The notes beneath the pieces are model-generated. The model searched no databases and was not told the DNA's origin. It saw only the letters and a list, made by a program, of their open reading frames with translations. From assembly GCA_913056215.1 (NCBI GenBank), contig CAJXMN010000010.1:1-48709 (forward strand): a stretch of 48,709 nucleotides of DNA, given 5' to 3'. Origin of the DNA: an uncultured Flavobacteriales bacterium. GTDB lineage: Bacteria > Bacteroidota > Bacteroidia > Flavobacteriales_D > Crocinitomicaceae. Below, one piece after another: positions 621 to 7,291 of this stretch (its first letter is position 1; each line of letters begins with the position of its first letter). Made by a program: the position numbers and the translations under genes.

Positions 621-638
621 ATGAAAACAAATGAAAAT

Positions 639-3600
639 ATGCGGTTTTTTATAGTCATTCTTTGCATTTTACCTTTTTACGTGCTCAGTCAAGAGGCCGA
701 GTTGGTCACTCAACAACGGATTAAAGGTACGATCACCAATTTTGTTTTTAGTCCAGACGGCGAGTATCTGGCAAATATCAGTGAAGATGATCCAGCAATC
801 CATGTTTGGCACCTTGCTTCGGAGAAGATTATTGGATCGCTTCAGGACTACGACCAGCCCACTGAAGCACTGGCCTACAATTCGGGTGGCGACGAGCTGT
901 TAACACTTTACGAAGACCACCTCATGATTCGCTGGAACCTGAATAAATGGTCTATTTCAGACTCTACGAGACTTGAAGAGGATCCAACCTGGATCGACAT
1001 GAGTGGCGACTATATGTTTGCGGGTTTATACAACGAAATAAAGGTGTTTGACCGTTCCTTTAAGCATCAAAAAACCATTGAAGTAAGCGGAAAACCGCGC
1101 AGCAGTTATTCCACTAAAAGTCACCTTTACGTGGGCACTTCTTTTGGTGAGCTCATTAAGATTAACCTCGACGATCTCTCTATTGCTTTTCAAAAAAAGT
1201 TCAATAAAACAGATTTTCAGGATCTCGACATTTCGACATCAAAAAATCGCCTGTTAGCTTTTAACGACAACGGCTCAGTGACAGAGGTTTCATTGAATGC
1301 GCTCACTTTGACAAATAACTTCAAGCCACTCGGTGGGTTTAACTTTGGGAAACAATACGGTCAAGTGCACGCTGGCAACGGATTGATTGCTTTTATCAAG
1401 AAAAAAAATCAAATCGACTGTTACAACATGGAAGGTAATTTGGTCATGCAGTTGATCGATACCGTGGAGTCTGAAGAGATTAAGGTATTGGAGTTTTCTC
1501 CGGACGGAAGTGTGCTGGGCTCTTCCAGCTTCAAACAAACATTCTTTCAGGGAATGGAGTCGGGAGAAAACAGTATCAAGTTGTGGGATTTGTCTCGTCA
1601 AGGATTGATTGCCGAACTCAAGGGTAGTGTGAACCCCGTCCATCAGTTTTCATTTCATCCCCAGGAAAATGTCGTTGCTCTACTCGGAGAAAACCGCAAA
1701 ATAAGCGTTTGGGATGTCGATTTTGCCGAAAAAATGTTTGAATTTCAATTGCAGGAGCCCGAACGCGAACAGGATATTGCGCTCATGGGTAAGGAAGATA
1801 AAGACGAGGTAAACAATTCGTCCAGCAGTGGAATTATCAATGTAAACAAGCTTGCAGAAAAAGCCAAAGAAAGCGTGGTGCGGAGAACAGTTAATCGCGT
1901 GAGGAAAGAGCCCGTGCTCGTGCAATTCTCAGCGAAGGGTAATTACCTCATGACAAAATTAAAGAAAGATGAAATCAGAATTTATCGCTATGACGGCGAA
2001 AGTCTGGAGTACATGCATTTTGCCAAACACCAGCAAGAACGGATTAATCATTTCATGACAGATCCCGAAGAAAAGCACATCATCTGTTTGGGTGCAGGCG
2101 ACAAAGCCGTTTCTATTGTCGACTTAGAAACAGGAGAGCTCAAAGAGAAATTAGCTACAGAAAACAAAACAGCAGATCGCGAATTCCTTAACAATGCCAT
2201 TTCTGGTTCTTACAATCCAACGGGTGATAATTTTGCCGTCTGTACGGGACGCGGTCAAATTTTTATTTGGGACAATAATTTTAACCGCATATTTAAGACA
2301 GCGGGAAATAACCTTTTCCGTGCTGGGAACAACGCTTTCATTAATTACTCTTCAGATGGTAAAACCCTCTACATGAAAGGTTTTGACGGTGTTCGCGGTT
2401 ACAATATCTCGAATTTTAACGTTCTAGGAACCAACAAACTTAAAATGCCTGGTCGACCTTACGAATTGGGCACACCGCAAAATTTTATGGTTGGTTTTGA
2501 CGAAACCACAGGCTACATTGAGAGCCTTTCCAATCAGCAACTGGTTTCTTTTCCTATTAATCGTAGTATGATCAATGCCGTCGATGCATCCTTGCGCAAT
2601 TACGTCGGTCTGTCGCTGAAAAATGGAGAGTTTCGCCTCTATGACGTAGCATCGGGAAACCTTCGGGCCACTTTCATAGGTGAGGGAGATAACACCATCA
2701 TTAAAACGGCAGATAATTATTACAAAGTCAATAAAGAGGGTTTTGATTTGGTTTCGTTTCGCATTGGTCGAAAAGCATATCCATTTGAGCAGTTTGATGC
2801 TTATTACAATCGCCCTGACCTCGTTTTAAAGGCGCTTAAATGTCCCGACGAAGAATACGTCGCGTTGTACAAAAATGCCCACGAGCGAAGATTAGAAAAA
2901 CTCGAAATAACGGATGCCTCTACACCAGATTTTTCTGCGCTTCCTCAATTAAAAATTACGAATCGTTCAGCAATTCCTTTTTCACAATCGGAAAAAAAGG
3001 TTGCATTCCACATCAAAGCATTGAGTGAAAAAAATCCGTTAGAAAAGCTAAAAATCACCATCAACAATGTGCCCGTCGAACACCACGAACTTGAGGGCCA
3101 ATCTGCTGAAAAAACAATCAACCTGGAGTTGATCAAAGGAACGAACAAAGTGAACGTATATGCCGTTAATACGAAAGGAGAAGAGAGTCTGGCCGAAAGT
3201 ATTACCATTCACTGTTCCCGGAGTGACAAACCCGACCTCTACCTGGTTACGGTCGGCACATCGAATTATGCCGATGATCGTTTTGATTTAAATTATGCAG
3301 CAAAAGATGCCCAAGATTTGACAGCATTGTATAACAACTACGATAATGGTCGGTTTAACGAGATTCACACTTATAACATTACCAACAAAGAGGTGAAAAA
3401 AGAAAAGTTTCAGGCTGTTAAGGAGTTTCTTCAAGCAACAAATCGCAATGATCAGGTGATCTTTTACATAGCTGGTCATGGTGTATTGGACGAAAACTTT
3501 GCCTACTACTACGGAACACACGACATGGACTTTCTGGCTCCACAAAAGCGCGGATTGTCTTACGACAAATTAGAAGAAGTACTCAGTGGTATTGCTTCTG

Positions 3601-4064
3601 CTAAAAAATTGCTGATTATGGACACTTGTCACTCGGGTGAAGTGGACGAAGATGAAGTAACCGTCGTCGAAGAAGATGAGGGCGACGACGATTTGGCTTT
3701 TAATGATGTAACATTCCGAGCGGTAGGACCGAAACTCCGTGAAGGGTCTGATACCCGAGCATCTGCAGGAAAAATGGCACGCCTACTCTTTGCTGATATC
3801 CGGAAAGGTACGGGCGCTACGGTTATTTCCAGTGCTGGCGGTGTCGAATTTGCCATGGAGGGCGACGACTGGAAAAATGGCTTGTTTACCTACTCGTTGC
3901 TTAACGGTATTACGAACCAAACAGCCGACCTCAACGACGATGGCGTCATCATGGTCTCTGAATTGCAAAACTATTTGATTGAAAAGGTAGGCAAACTATC
4001 GCACGGCAAACAAGTACCGACCACTCGCGTTCAAAATATTCGTTTGGATTATCCGGTATGGTAA
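639..4064 (+). CDS. Secreted WD40-repeat / caspase-family (C14) protein with EF-hand loop
   Basis: This 1141-residue protein has a signal peptide (MRFFIVILCILPFYVLSQ), then about 700 residues of WD40-type beta-propeller repeats with motifs such as FSPDGEYLA, IKLWDLS and ISVWDVD. A linker follows, then a C-terminal caspase-like fold from about residue 866 (DLYLVTVGTSNYADD). The catalytic dyad is visible: His947 in YIAGHGV and Cys997 in DTCHSGE. A very acidic loop follows the Cys. Near the C-terminus DLNDDGVIMVSE (1097-1108) fits a 12-residue EF-hand calcium loop. In C14 families the propeller usually mediates protein contacts and the caspase cleaves peptides; the substrate here is unknown. An in-frame ATG at 621 would add six residues, but the promoter box at 612-619 argues for 639. 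The next gene starts four bases after the stop, so they are probably cotranscribed. Confidence 0.85.
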   Translation: MRFFIVILCILPFYVLSQEAELVTQQRIKGTITNFVFSPDGEYLANISEDDPAIHVWHLASEKIIGSLQDYDQPTEALAYNSGGDELLTLYEDHLMIRWNLNKWSISDSTRLEEDPTWIDMSGDYMFAGLYNEIKVFDRSFKHQKTIEVSGKPRSSYSTKSHLYVGTSFGELIKINLDDLSIAFQKKFNKTDFQDLDISTSKNRLLAFNDNGSVTEVSLNALTLTNNFKPLGGFNFGKQYGQVHAGNGLIAFIKKKNQIDCYNMEGNLVMQLIDTVESEEIKVLEFSPDGSVLGSSSFKQTFFQGMESGENSIKLWDLSRQGLIAELKGSVNPVHQFSFHPQENVVALLGENRKISVWDVDFAEKMFEFQLQEPEREQDIALMGKEDKDEVNNSSSSGIINVNKLAEKAKESVVRRTVNRVRKEPVLVQFSAKGNYLMTKLKKDEIRIYRYDGESLEYMHFAKHQQERINHFMTDPEEKHIICLGAGDKAVSIVDLETGELKEKLATENKTADREFLNNAISGSYNPTGDNFAVCTGRGQIFIWDNNFNRIFKTAGNNLFRAGNNAFINYSSDGKTLYMKGFDGVRGYNISNFNVLGTNKLKMPGRPYELGTPQNFMVGFDETTGYIESLSNQQLVSFPINRSMINAVDASLRNYVGLSLKNGEFRLYDVASGNLRATFIGEGDNTIIKTADNYYKVNKEGFDLVSFRIGRKAYPFEQFDAYYNRPDLVLKALKCPDEEYVALYKNAHERRLEKLEITDASTPDFSALPQLKITNRSAIPFSQSEKKVAFHIKALSEKNPLEKLKITINNVPVEHHELEGQSAEKTINLELIKGTNKVNVYAVNTKGEESLAESITIHCSRSDKPDLYLVTVGTSNYADDRFDLNYAAKDAQDLTALYNNYDNGRFNEIHTYNITNKEVKKEKFQAVKEFLQATNRNDQVIFYIAGHGVLDENFAYYYGTHDMDFLAPQKRGLSYDKLEEVLSGIASAKKLLIMDTCHSGEVDEDEVTVVEEDEGDDDLAFNDVTFRAVGPKLREGSDTRASAGKMARLLFADIRKGTGATVISSAGGVEFAMEGDDWKNGLFTYSLLNGITNQTADLNDDGVIMVSELQNYLIEKVGKLSHGKQVPTTRVQNIRLDYPVW

Positions 4065-4068
4065 TATA

Positions 4069-4608
4069 ATGCGCACATTCATCTCCATATTCTTTGTGTT
4101 GGCCCTATTGCTGCCTTTTGCCACCATTTTTGGGTGGCTTTCCATCGAGCGAGAGGCCGTAAGAAAAAACGCGAAACATAAACTGATGAAAACGGTTTCC
4201 GATGACGAATTGATGGCTTTTACTTTTCCAATAGAAGACACCACCACGAAATTGCAATGGGAGCATGCCCGGGAATTTGAATACGGCGGAGAAATGTACG
4301 ATATCGTGAGGCGCAGCTATTCAGATCACGAAGTGACCTATCACGTATGGTGGGATCACGAAGAAACCCTGTTGAATCGCAAATTGACGCAGCTTTCCTC
4401 CATCTATTTCAACGATTCCCCAGTGAAGAAGAAATCAGATCGACAACTCTCCTTTTTTATGCAACAGCTTTTTGTAGATCCTCTCTCTTCTCAGCTCACA
4501 CCTCCTGTTTATTCCATAAACCAGCATATTTACGCCTATTTATCACCATATACAGATCCCGAAATAGAGGTTTGTACACCACCCCCTCGTAACTCGCTTA
4601 TTTTTTGA
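4069..4608 (+). CDS. Small membrane-anchored protein of unknown function
   Basis: This 179-residue protein starts four bases after the WD40-caspase stop codon. It has one N-terminal hydrophobic segment (about residues 3-25) that could be a signal anchor. The rest is soluble and rich in charged and aromatic residues (for example VTYHVWWDHEETLLNRKL), with a Pro-rich end. One Cys is present near the C-terminus (EVCTPPP). I do not recognise the family. The hydrophobic start and tight spacing suggest an envelope protein that works with, or is processed by, the caspase-like protein upstream; that link is inferred only from position. The last 30 codons look less constrained than the rest. Confidence 0.65.
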   Translation: MRTFISIFFVLALLLPFATIFGWLSIEREAVRKNAKHKLMKTVSDDELMAFTFPIEDTTTKLQWEHAREFEYGGEMYDIVRRSYSDHEVTYHVWWDHEETLLNRKLTQLSSIYFNDSPVKKKSDRQLSFFMQQLFVDPLSSQLTPPVYSINQHIYAYLSPYTDPEIEVCTPPPRNSLIF

Positions 4609-4888
4609 TTATCGTTGTTATACCTTAACGTATAACTCACAAAGATTATGAATTGTTTGGATGACCACCAGGTGCTAATACCCTGACGGTTTATTGTTCT
4701 GAGTAATGTAGTAATCATCACTCGTTTTTGCCTCAGTGCCGATGGGCTCTCGAGCAGCATTAAAAAAAGGCTGGTTTCTTTTTTGAAACGAAGGCTTCAA
4801 TTACTCCGTATGACATATATCCTCGGTATTTATAAATCTGGAATCATTCGTTCGTCATTCAACTATAAACGTTCAAAAAATAATAAAA

Positions 4889-7291
4889 ATGAATAAATTA
4901 TTAGTTTTAATGATGCTCTGCATTGCATCATTGACAACGGCTCAGTCACTCACCGTTGTCGATCAAAAAACCAAAGAGCCATTAGAAATGGTCGAAATTG
5001 GTGGAAAAGGAGTGGCTAAAAAAGTCTTCACGCAAAAAGATGGTCAAGCAGATATTCGTCATTTTAAAGGAACCAATGAAATTATCATTCGGCTCTACGG
5101 ATATGAAACGCGAGAGTTCTCTTATCAGCAATTGAAAGCTTCCGATTTTAAAGTGACCTTACAATCGCGGATTTTGACATTGAACGAAGTCGTAGTTTCT
5201 GCCAACAAGTGGAGTCAGGTATCATCTGATGTACCGATCAAAATTTCAAGTATTTCACCAAAAGAAATCGCACTGCAAAATCCCCAGACCGCAGCGGACT
5301 TACTGGGTACTTCGGGAGAGGTATTCGTTCAAAAAAGTCAGCAAGGTGGGGGGAGTCCAATGATTCGTGGATTTGCAACGAACCGTTTGCTTTACTCTGT
5401 GGATGGCGTACGCATGAATACCGCCATTTTCCGCGGAGGAAATATCCAAAATGTCATTTCACTGGATCCTTTTGCTATGGAAAATGCAGAAATTTTATTC
5501 GGACCCAACTCTACAATTTATGGTAGTGATGCGATTGGCGGTGTGATGAGTTTTCAAACCCTCACTCCCGATTTTGCTGATGGGGAAAAACCGCTTGTTA
5601 AAGGAAAAGCCCTCATGCGCTATTCGTCAGCCAATCGTGAAAATACAGGGCATTTTGATATCAACGTAGGTTGGAAAAAGTGGGCGTTGGTTACAAGTGT
5701 TTCATCCAATAAATTTGACCACTTGCGCCAGGGCAGTCACGGACCCGAAGATTACGTAAAACCCTACCATATCGAACGGATCAACGAGATGGATGTCCTT
5801 GTAGATCAAGATGACCCATTACTTCAAGTACCTTCGGCATATGATCAAATGAATCTCATGCAAAAAGTACGCTTTGCACCCAATGAATACTGGGACTTAA
5901 AATATGCTTTTCATTATTCAGAGACCTCATCTTATGGTCGATATGACCGTCACAACCGCATGAAAAATGGTGATCCGCGCTATGGCCAGTGGGATTACGG
6001 TCCTCAAAAATGGATGATGAATTTACTCACGATACACCATCGCCAATCCAATTTATTCTATGATCAAATGAGTATCCGTTTTGCTCAACAATCATTCGAA
6101 GAAAGCCGCATTTCACGCGATTTAAATAGTTTTTTCCGCGAAAGAAGGGCCGAAAATGTTCAAGCCTACTCGGCAAACGTCGATTTTTCAAAAGCGATCG
6201 GGTCCAATAACAACTTGTTTTATGGAGTAGAATACGTCTTCAACGACGTTTCATCCGAGGGGAAAATTGAGGATATAGGCCAGCAAACTTCTGTTCCTGG
6301 TCCCTCCCGTTATCCGGAGTCCTCGTGGCAAACGGCAGGACTTTATCTCAATGACGAACACCAATTTGGTGAAAATCTCACCGTTCAGGCAGGAGCGCGC
6401 TACACGCATTATTTGTTAGATGCTACTTTCGACACCACTTTTTATCCATTTCCATTCACTGATGCCAATCTGAATAATGGAGCGTTAACTGGTGGGATCG
6501 GTGCCGTCTATGAATGGAATGAAAACACAGTGTTTCGTTTTAATGCATCAACGGCTTTTCGTTCCCCGAATGTAGATGATATTGGCAAAGTTTTCGACTC
6601 CGAACCGGGTTCTGTTGTCGTTCCCAACACGGGGTTAAGCGCAGAGTATGCCTACAATGCTGATATTGGAATCACAAAAGTTTTTGGTGAATTCGTGAAG
6701 CTCGATCTCACAGGGTACTACACGCTCCTGGAAAACGCGATGGTGCGGCGGGATTTTACCCTGAACGGTGCCGACAGCATCATTTATGATGGTTCTCTTA
6801 GCCAGGTTCAAGCACTACAAAATGCAGCCGAGACAACCGTCTACGGGCTCCAGGCTGGATTAGAAATTAACCTAACTAACGGTTTTTTACTCCGGTCACG
6901 CTTTAATTATCAACGCGGTCGCGAAGAGATGAGTGATGGTTCCATTAGTCCATCTCGTCATGCAGCACCTTGGTTTGGTATAACACGTCTTCGCTATACT
7001 TTTGGCGAACTCATGTTTGATTTTTATGCTCAATATCAAGGCGAAAGGAGTCATGAAAACCTATCAGTGAGCGAGCGGGGAAAAAGCGAAATATACGCCC
7101 GTGATGAAAATGGACAAACATACGCTCCAAGTTGGTATACACTTAATTTGAAAATCATGTATGCCGTAAGTGATCACTTGACAGTAAGCGGAGGAGTGGA
7201 GAACATTACAGATCAACGCTACCGTCCTTATAGTTCGGGGCTTTCCGGTGCTGGACGCAATTTTATTTTAGCCGTAACGGTTCCGTTTTAA
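4889..7291 (+). CDS. TonB-dependent outer-membrane receptor, heme/hemoglobin-receptor type
   Basis: This 800-residue outer-membrane receptor has a signal peptide ending near TTAQ and a carboxypeptidase-regulatory-like domain (about 20-95, ending VVVSANKW). A plug domain follows with GGGSPMIRGFATNRLL and IYGSDAIGGV (about 150-215), then a 22-strand-type beta barrel. The C-terminus is aromatic (LAVTVPF), as expected for BamA-dependent insertion. The plug wording is that of the hemoglobin/transferrin/lactoferrin-type TonB receptor family, so heme or a siderophore is the likely ligand; the substrate itself is not proven. It stands alone with 280 bases upstream, and a terminator follows the stop directly. 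No clear -7 box or Fur box was found in the upstream gap. Confidence 0.85.
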   Translation: MNKLLVLMMLCIASLTTAQSLTVVDQKTKEPLEMVEIGGKGVAKKVFTQKDGQADIRHFKGTNEIIIRLYGYETREFSYQQLKASDFKVTLQSRILTLNEVVVSANKWSQVSSDVPIKISSISPKEIALQNPQTAADLLGTSGEVFVQKSQQGGGSPMIRGFATNRLLYSVDGVRMNTAIFRGGNIQNVISLDPFAMENAEILFGPNSTIYGSDAIGGVMSFQTLTPDFADGEKPLVKGKALMRYSSANRENTGHFDINVGWKKWALVTSVSSNKFDHLRQGSHGPEDYVKPYHIERINEMDVLVDQDDPLLQVPSAYDQMNLMQKVRFAPNEYWDLKYAFHYSETSSYGRYDRHNRMKNGDPRYGQWDYGPQKWMMNLLTIHHRQSNLFYDQMSIRFAQQSFEESRISRDLNSFFRERRAENVQAYSANVDFSKAIGSNNNLFYGVEYVFNDVSSEGKIEDIGQQTSVPGPSRYPESSWQTAGLYLNDEHQFGENLTVQAGARYTHYLLDATFDTTFYPFPFTDANLNNGALTGGIGAVYEWNENTVFRFNASTAFRSPNVDDIGKVFDSEPGSVVVPNTGLSAEYAYNADIGITKVFGEFVKLDLTGYYTLLENAMVRRDFTLNGADSIIYDGSLSQVQALQNAAETTVYGLQAGLEINLTNGFLLRSRFNYQRGREEMSDGSISPSRHAAPWFGITRLRYTFGELMFDFYAQYQGERSHENLSVSERGKSEIYARDENGQTYAPSWYTLNLKIMYAVSDHLTVSGGVENITDQRYRPYSSGLSGAGRNFILAVTVPF

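Follow-up and report, generated by a model that had tools for sequence, protein, structure and literature searches.

How a bacterial caspase that appears to leave the cytosol is kept inactive until needed, and whether a calcium-type loop near its C-terminus has a part in this control, are the questions raised by a gene on contig CAJXMN010000010.1 of an uncultured Flavobacteriales bacterium of the Crocinitomicaceae (assembly GCA_913056215.1). The window, that is, the whole analyzed stretch of 48,709 nucleotides, carries an open reading frame at positions 621-4064 of its forward strand, on which all the window features described here also lie. Its product has 1147 aa if translation starts at ATG 621 and 1141 aa if it starts at ATG 639. 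Residue numbers are counted from ATG 639, with ATG 621 taken as the alternative start. The protein comprises, in order, a signal-like N-terminus, a WD40 beta-propeller region, a conserved hinge, a beta-sandwich of the fibronectin type III (FN3)/immunoglobulin (Ig)-like kind, and a caspase domain with an intact His947/Cys997 dyad, in which an acidic segment follows the catalytic cysteine and an EF-hand-like loop lies close to the end. An earlier note on this DNA had proposed that the loop acts as a calcium switch. In the analysis reported here, the acidic segment is the better clue than the EF-hand-like loop, and the protein is tentatively read as an exported, envelope-side zymogen caspase, in which the propeller would provide recognition, the linker would be self-cleaved, and the loop would be a structural calcium site. 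The chances of this combined reading were judged to be a little below even.

The caspase (peptidase C14) domain covers residues 866-1141 (3234-4061). Pfam PF00656 matched residues 871-1131 with 45.2 bits against a curated cut-off of 21.4, which places the domain in C14, and the match spanned model positions 6-225 of 233, its reach to residue 1131 bearing on the presence of a p10 part. Conservation was assessed in a 115-row alignment, a selection of matches from near-relative and class-wide searches that comprised 85 distinct caspase-domain proteins, 29 domains from the class-wide search, and one Sulfitobacter plasmid domain. Both catalytic residues, His947 (3477-3479) and Cys997, were found in 115/115 aligned domains. 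The residue two places before the cysteine, Asp995 (Asp995-Thr996-Cys997, 3621-3629), was aspartate in all 115 as well, and Asp890 (3306-3308), which aligns with the S1-pocket Asp95 of TbMCA2, was aspartate in 114. These S1 aspartates were mapped by profile alignments to known structures, and their roles follow PMC4357240 and PMC7206013. An aspartate ahead of the cysteine and another in helix 1 fit the metacaspase/orthocaspase type, which would prefer a basic P1 residue. The p10-like part was the most conserved segment compared, with 85-91% identity across four genus orthologues. A PDB sequence search with the caspase domain alone returned no match at E 1, and a PDB profile search returned GSU0716 at E 3e-4, plus metacaspases. 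Membership in the EACC1-associated caspases (NF047832) was rejected at 80.4 bits, under the curated cut-off of 140. A role in anti-phage defense, examined by PADLOC score alone, was also dropped (PADLOC 'caspase', 24.3 bits).

The segment that follows Cys997 (residues 998-1048; 3630-3782) looks like a p20/p10 linker that would contain a self-cleavage or pocket-plug site. Its net charge is -13 across the 29 residues from after Cys997 up to Phe1026, and the proposed site is Phe1026-Arg1027 (3714-3719). Among the 85 rows having the Arg1027 column, arginine occupied it in 76, lysine in 4, and other residues in 5; the preceding residue was Phe in 74/85, and the following one was A, S, N, G, or T in 78/85. 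The 76 Arg-bearing linker segments had a mean net charge of -7.6 (range -3 to -13), whereas 25-aa windows drawn from the same proteins averaged -0.64. A net charge of -5 or below was reached by 70 of the 76 segments and by 5.0% of the 25-aa background windows. The linker arginine was retained in 5 rows without the EF-hand-like loop. On a quick tree (Shimodaira-Hasegawa-like approximate likelihood ratio test only, midpoint root, long-branch warnings), the loop changed about 6 times and the linker arginine about twice, both being rough counts. A test of whether the two change together had no power with its 6 pairs, since the arginine hardly ever differs.

The EF-hand-like loop DLNDDGVIMVSE (residues 1097-1108; 3927-3962) has 12 residues with ligands at positions 1, 3, 5, and 12, as in the loop of an EF-hand. 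It sits between an FTYSLL stretch and an SELQNYL stretch, which we take to be the two helices that end p10 in the caspase fold. All 14 of 14 orthologue candidates had D1, D/N3, D/N5, G6, I/V8, and E12 (15 rows when the window is counted), and across five genus members, window included, the codons of the loop varied while its ligand and key residues stayed. The strict pattern D.[DNS].[DNS]G.[ILV]...E occurred once, compared with 0.003 occurrences expected per shuffled protein. As 0.46 occurrences of the ligand-only pattern are expected per shuffled protein, that pattern alone would mean nothing, and the weight rests on conservation. When loop state was called from alignment columns, the ligands were complete in 82/115 aligned domains and in 76 of the 85 long-linker rows. 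Six short-linker rows and an alphaproteobacterial plasmid protein also had the loop, and thus, as a rough estimate, the loop probably predates the acidic linker. In L157, L158, and L160, which were counted as loop-less, the loop is one residue shorter (DNGDGKITVNE) and may be a variant calcium loop. Around the catalytic histidine, L101:1329-4565 and L102:1454-4705 read ATHG instead of AGHG; both lack the EF loop and keep Phe-Arg.

At the other end of the protein, the N-terminus is hydrophobic, with a hydropathy peak of 2.98 within the first 45 residues compared with 1.42 beyond residue 60. A signal peptide was placed by hydropathy only at residues 1-18 (639-692), with cleavage guessed after ...VLS/QEAEL. 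The same crude test for a signal-like N-terminus was passed by 77 of the 80 family proteins that reach 870 aa, and one of the 3 that failed is a gene cut by a contig end. The WD40-caspase is thus probably an exported protein. The propeller region (residues ~19-690; 693-2708) was delimited by Pfam matches, the best stretches of WD40/beta-propeller models falling within residues 15-637. Its predicted model was poor (predicted local distance difference test, pLDDT, 34.2), with a blade count that could not be resolved, and only the FN3/Ig-like part of the model was used. Between the two lies a strongly conserved hinge (residues 691-760; 2709-2918) containing YPFEQFDAYYNRPD, with a mean identity to the window of 0.66, compared with 0.42 for residues 19-690 (14 aligned rows, window included). 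The FN3/Ig-like beta-sandwich (residues ~767-863; 2937-3227), delimited by predicted model and structure comparison, had pLDDT values of 52-79 by 10-residue block. Its top Z was 9.1, with an FN3-like module, which is only slightly more than the 7-8 usual for models that match nothing clearly. A signal-like N-terminus, the WD40 propeller, the caspase-like domain with His947/Cys997, and the acidic run directly after Cys997 were all recovered as the earlier note had described them, and the beta-sandwich, which it had missed, was added.

The same Ig-like domain matched those of BT3049 and BT4663, periplasmic sensors of Bacteroides hybrid two-component systems, with Z 8.0 and 6.9, respectively. In these sensors, a propeller precedes the Ig-like domain, as in the window protein. 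Their output is a kinase across the membrane, whereas that of the window protein would be a protease in the same chain, and whole-model similarity to them was not meaningful (template modeling score ~0.1). In paralogues L060, L061, L064, L067, and L073 (905-1989 aa), a C-terminal caspase was accompanied by an N-terminal part with no WD40 match at E 0.001; the recognition part may be exchanged.

Several observations weigh against an exported zymogen caspase with a structural calcium site, and they bear on the loop, the linker, and the S1 pocket alike. In the case of the loop, position 9 is Met, the PROSITE-type EF-hand pattern is not matched, and EF-hand models stayed below cut-off, Pfam EF-hand_5 giving 13.0 bits on the isolated C-terminus against a cut-off of 25.9. 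Calcium binding at the loop is therefore no more than putative, and of the "textbook" EF-hand loop claimed previously at 1097-1108, the position proved exact and the epithet too strong. The same results would suit a loop that, as a conserved acidic turn or helix cap, does not bind calcium, as would the presence of Gly6 in just 52 of the 82 ligand-complete loops. Moreover, of the 33 aligned relatives whose loop ligands are incomplete, 18 still have Glu12, which is hence no evidence for calcium. However, in the 82 ligand-complete loops, positions 1, 3, 5, and 8 were narrow (entropy 0 to 1.0 bits) and positions 2, 4, 7, and 9 were wide (2.2 to 3.2 bits); this narrowness is partly due to the definition of the set at positions 1, 3, and 5 and not so at position 8. 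A turn without calcium was considered rather unlikely. A further point concerns the phylum-wide sample, in which PF00656 matched 72/198 genomes. From 30 loci of its best PF00656 matches, which were mostly short caspases unlike the window type and stand outside the 115-row alignment, 23 caspases were parsed by regular expression, and only one of them (L143) showed an EF-like loop; thus, the caspase fold does not need it.

If calcium binding at the loop turned the protease on, as proposed in the earlier note, the retention of the loop in all 14 orthologue candidates would be expected. The refuting condition set in the note, EF-hand residues that are not conserved among close homologues, was thus not borne out, and most metacaspases of eukaryotes are activated by calcium (PMC7206013, PMC5756287). 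However, the loop and the dyad, whose co-conservation the note had also asked for, did not go strictly together: 9 of the 85 long-linker rows lacked the loop yet had His and Cys, and the loop was absent from 22 of the 23 phylum-wide caspases. The loop also lies apart from the calcium sites described for metacaspases, namely, the acidic L5 loop in p20 and the 280-loop in p10 (PMC7206013, PMC4357240, PMC5756287), and activation of the orthocaspase MaOC1 is calcium-independent (PMC7475262). Calcium outside the cytosol would presumably be high at all times, and since an exported protein would meet it constantly, a permanently filled structural site is favored. A calcium switch is possible but less likely, and on its own account it was rated quite unlikely; from the sequences compared, a structural calcium site appears likelier than a switch.

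In the case of the linker, Phe-Arg might be a structural strand or substrate-groove element that is not cut at all. A cleavage site need not be as uniform as the motif F-R-[AS]-[VA]-G is, and GSU0716, for which a structure has been solved, has an arginine at the aligned place, so that the linker arginine could be structural. Against this, lysine replaces arginine in 4/85 rows, the preceding segment is strongly acidic and varies in length and sequence, and a basic P1 residue would suit the S1 aspartates. A purely structural Phe-Arg was judged a real possibility, though one we doubt, and the processing site suggested in the earlier note for the acidic run is possible and strengthened by Phe1026-Arg1027. 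Within the pocket, position 945 is Ala in the window and in 91/115 domains, where TbMCA2 has its S1 Ser156. In addition, the predicted model of the caspase domain, made from an alignment of 2 rows (window and L033), was unusable at a mean pLDDT of 40.5, and where the loop and the linker lie with respect to the active site was consequently read from the alignment and from general caspase topology.

The neighborhood offers one more explanation, in which the caspase would serve the adjoining TonB-dependent receptor genes by processing a receptor part. Downstream on the same strand (4069-7291), a 179-aa protein (p179), which starts 4 bases on and has a hydrophobic N-terminus and no Pfam match, is followed by a TonB-dependent receptor that resembles heme receptors with scores below cut-offs. 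Both genes followed the caspase in 4/4 genus orthologue loci. However, the pair was also present in genomes G002-G005, where no caspase relative was found, and neither gene occurred in the fetched stretch of 13 further caspase loci, some of which stop at contig ends. Within the genus, the pair is found in genomes that have the caspase and in genomes that lack it. Because of these two results, p179 and the receptor are not an obligate partner; p179 was dropped as a partner candidate on account of its presence in genomes without the caspase. A role in receptor processing is very improbable.

According to the favored reading of a zymogen caspase, the protein would be exported by the Sec route and act on the envelope side in Bacteroidota, where the WD40 propeller would bind a partner beyond the cytosol and gate the protease, to which it would be linked by the FN3/Ig-like domain. 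The acidic S1 pocket would direct cleavage after Arg or Lys. In the zymogen state, the acidic linker after Cys997 would place Phe1026-Arg1027 over the active site, and a cut after Arg1027 would open the enzyme. The EF-hand-like loop would join the presumed last two helices, most likely with a permanently bound calcium ion, which would stabilize this half of the domain once the protein is outside and would not itself be the trigger. The sequences show the order of the domains, the dyad, and the conservation of the loop among orthologue candidates, of the linker arginine, and of the S1 aspartates; export, ligand sensing, self-cleavage, and calcium binding with its structural role are inferred from them. 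On a wider scale, the protein may be one of many caspase receptors that act on the envelope side in Bacteroidota and form a large family, with a constant C-terminal unit (hinge, FN3/Ig-like domain, and caspase with an Arg-plugged acidic linker) and N-terminal regions that vary. In this family, the EF loop would restrict folding or activity of the enzyme to the space beyond the cytosol, which is rich in calcium. Calcium would then be a licence of place and not a signal. This extension is speculative, and we consider it unlikely.

Parts of this arrangement are known already, namely, WD40-caspase fusions and, in some archaeal orthocaspases, an EF-hand motif or an Ig-like domain. Among prokaryotic caspase homologues, WD40 occurs more often than any other additional domain (73 sequences, 10.9%; PMC3501461), and a Bacteroidetes genome with 28 caspase-homologue genes is in print (PMC3501461, PMC6426788). 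The WD40 caspase homologues of PMC3501461 share with the window the fusion of C14 to WD40, and Bacteroidetes are among the carriers. The widespread WD40 architecture given there is metacaspase-NACHT-WD40, whereas the order in the window is signal-like N-terminus, WD40, FN3/Ig-like domain, and a caspase that contains both an acidic Phe-Arg linker and an EF-like loop. The archaeal orthocaspases carry an EF-hand motif in 7 proteins or a Big_7 Ig-like domain in 15; they differ in being archaeal, and the place of the motif and any propeller are not given in the available part of PMC6426788.

In terms of activation, MaOC1 of Microcystis, the one orthocaspase biochemically characterized according to a 2017 review (PMC5756287), is a precedent as a caspase homologue that prefers a basic P1 residue and cuts itself after Arg219 (PMC7475262, PMC8283722). 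Whether Arg219 falls in the same linker is not stated in the passages of PMC7475262 at hand. MaOC1 differs in being calcium-independent, and neither an EF loop nor an exported propeller is mentioned in the corresponding parts of PMC7475262 and PMC8283722. A possible analogue is the type II metacaspase AtMC4, in which the linker residue Lys225 lies in the acidic active-site pocket and is cut there with calcium (PMC7206013). In AtMC4, however, calcium acts with the acidic L5 loop, the linker domain is much larger, and the term 'EF-hand' does not occur in the text of that paper (PMC7206013). Among the matches listed in a literature search of titles and abstract starts, no open-licence paper dealt with a signal-peptide/WD40/Ig-like/caspase family with an EF-like loop or a conserved Phe-Arg linker.

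As for the distribution of the family, a match was obtained in 19 of the 59 own and near-relative genomes. Full-length orthologues with 60-67% identity were present in four other genus members (5/10 genus genomes including the own one), and the best matches outside the genus were 36-43% identical, some over partial length. Up to 13 matches were obtained in one genome, with paralogues and fragments counted together. The 113 loci, including 80 fetched regions, yielded the 85 distinct caspase-domain proteins of the alignment, some of them partial. In the class-wide search, 82/247 genomes had a match, and the 30 loci taken added 29 domains. The search of viral contigs confirmed no relative, that of the genome contig collection gave one (L033), and that of plasmids gave 6 records, 3 of which covered at least 80% of the query at 34.1, 26.4, and 22.6% identity.

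Some relatives deserve separate mention. The own genome has PF00656 matches at two places, the window gene and one gene on contig 63. The latter (L093:7488-10979) encodes a WD40-caspase of 1163 aa with DACQSG and a 17-residue stretch after the cysteine; it has no EF loop and keeps His and Cys. Its short-linker paralogue clade has 11 rows in the tree, one of which (L107) counts as loop-bearing by the alignment-column criterion. L174:404-4822, on a plasmid of Sulfitobacter sp. THAF37, encodes a 1472-aa caspase protein, in which the loop reads DRNADSKIDIEE; a gene for a mechanosensitive channel is adjacent. The caspase protein is 34% identical across 96% of the window caspase domain and possibly represents a caspase that moved between phyla. 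L112 (contig 16 of G006) is a caspase relative with two stop codons within the matched stretch.

Bacterial caspase homologues are numerous, and for few of them are the substrates and triggers known. The present gene stands for a family that apparently acts outside the cytosol; its members share a conserved candidate site of self-cleavage, and the orthologue candidates among them all keep the calcium-type loop. Arg1027 on the one hand and Asp1097/Asp1101 on the other are handles by which zymogen activation could be separated from calcium dependence. The family therefore bears on the question of whether the calcium control of metacaspases has a bacterial root or a separate origin.

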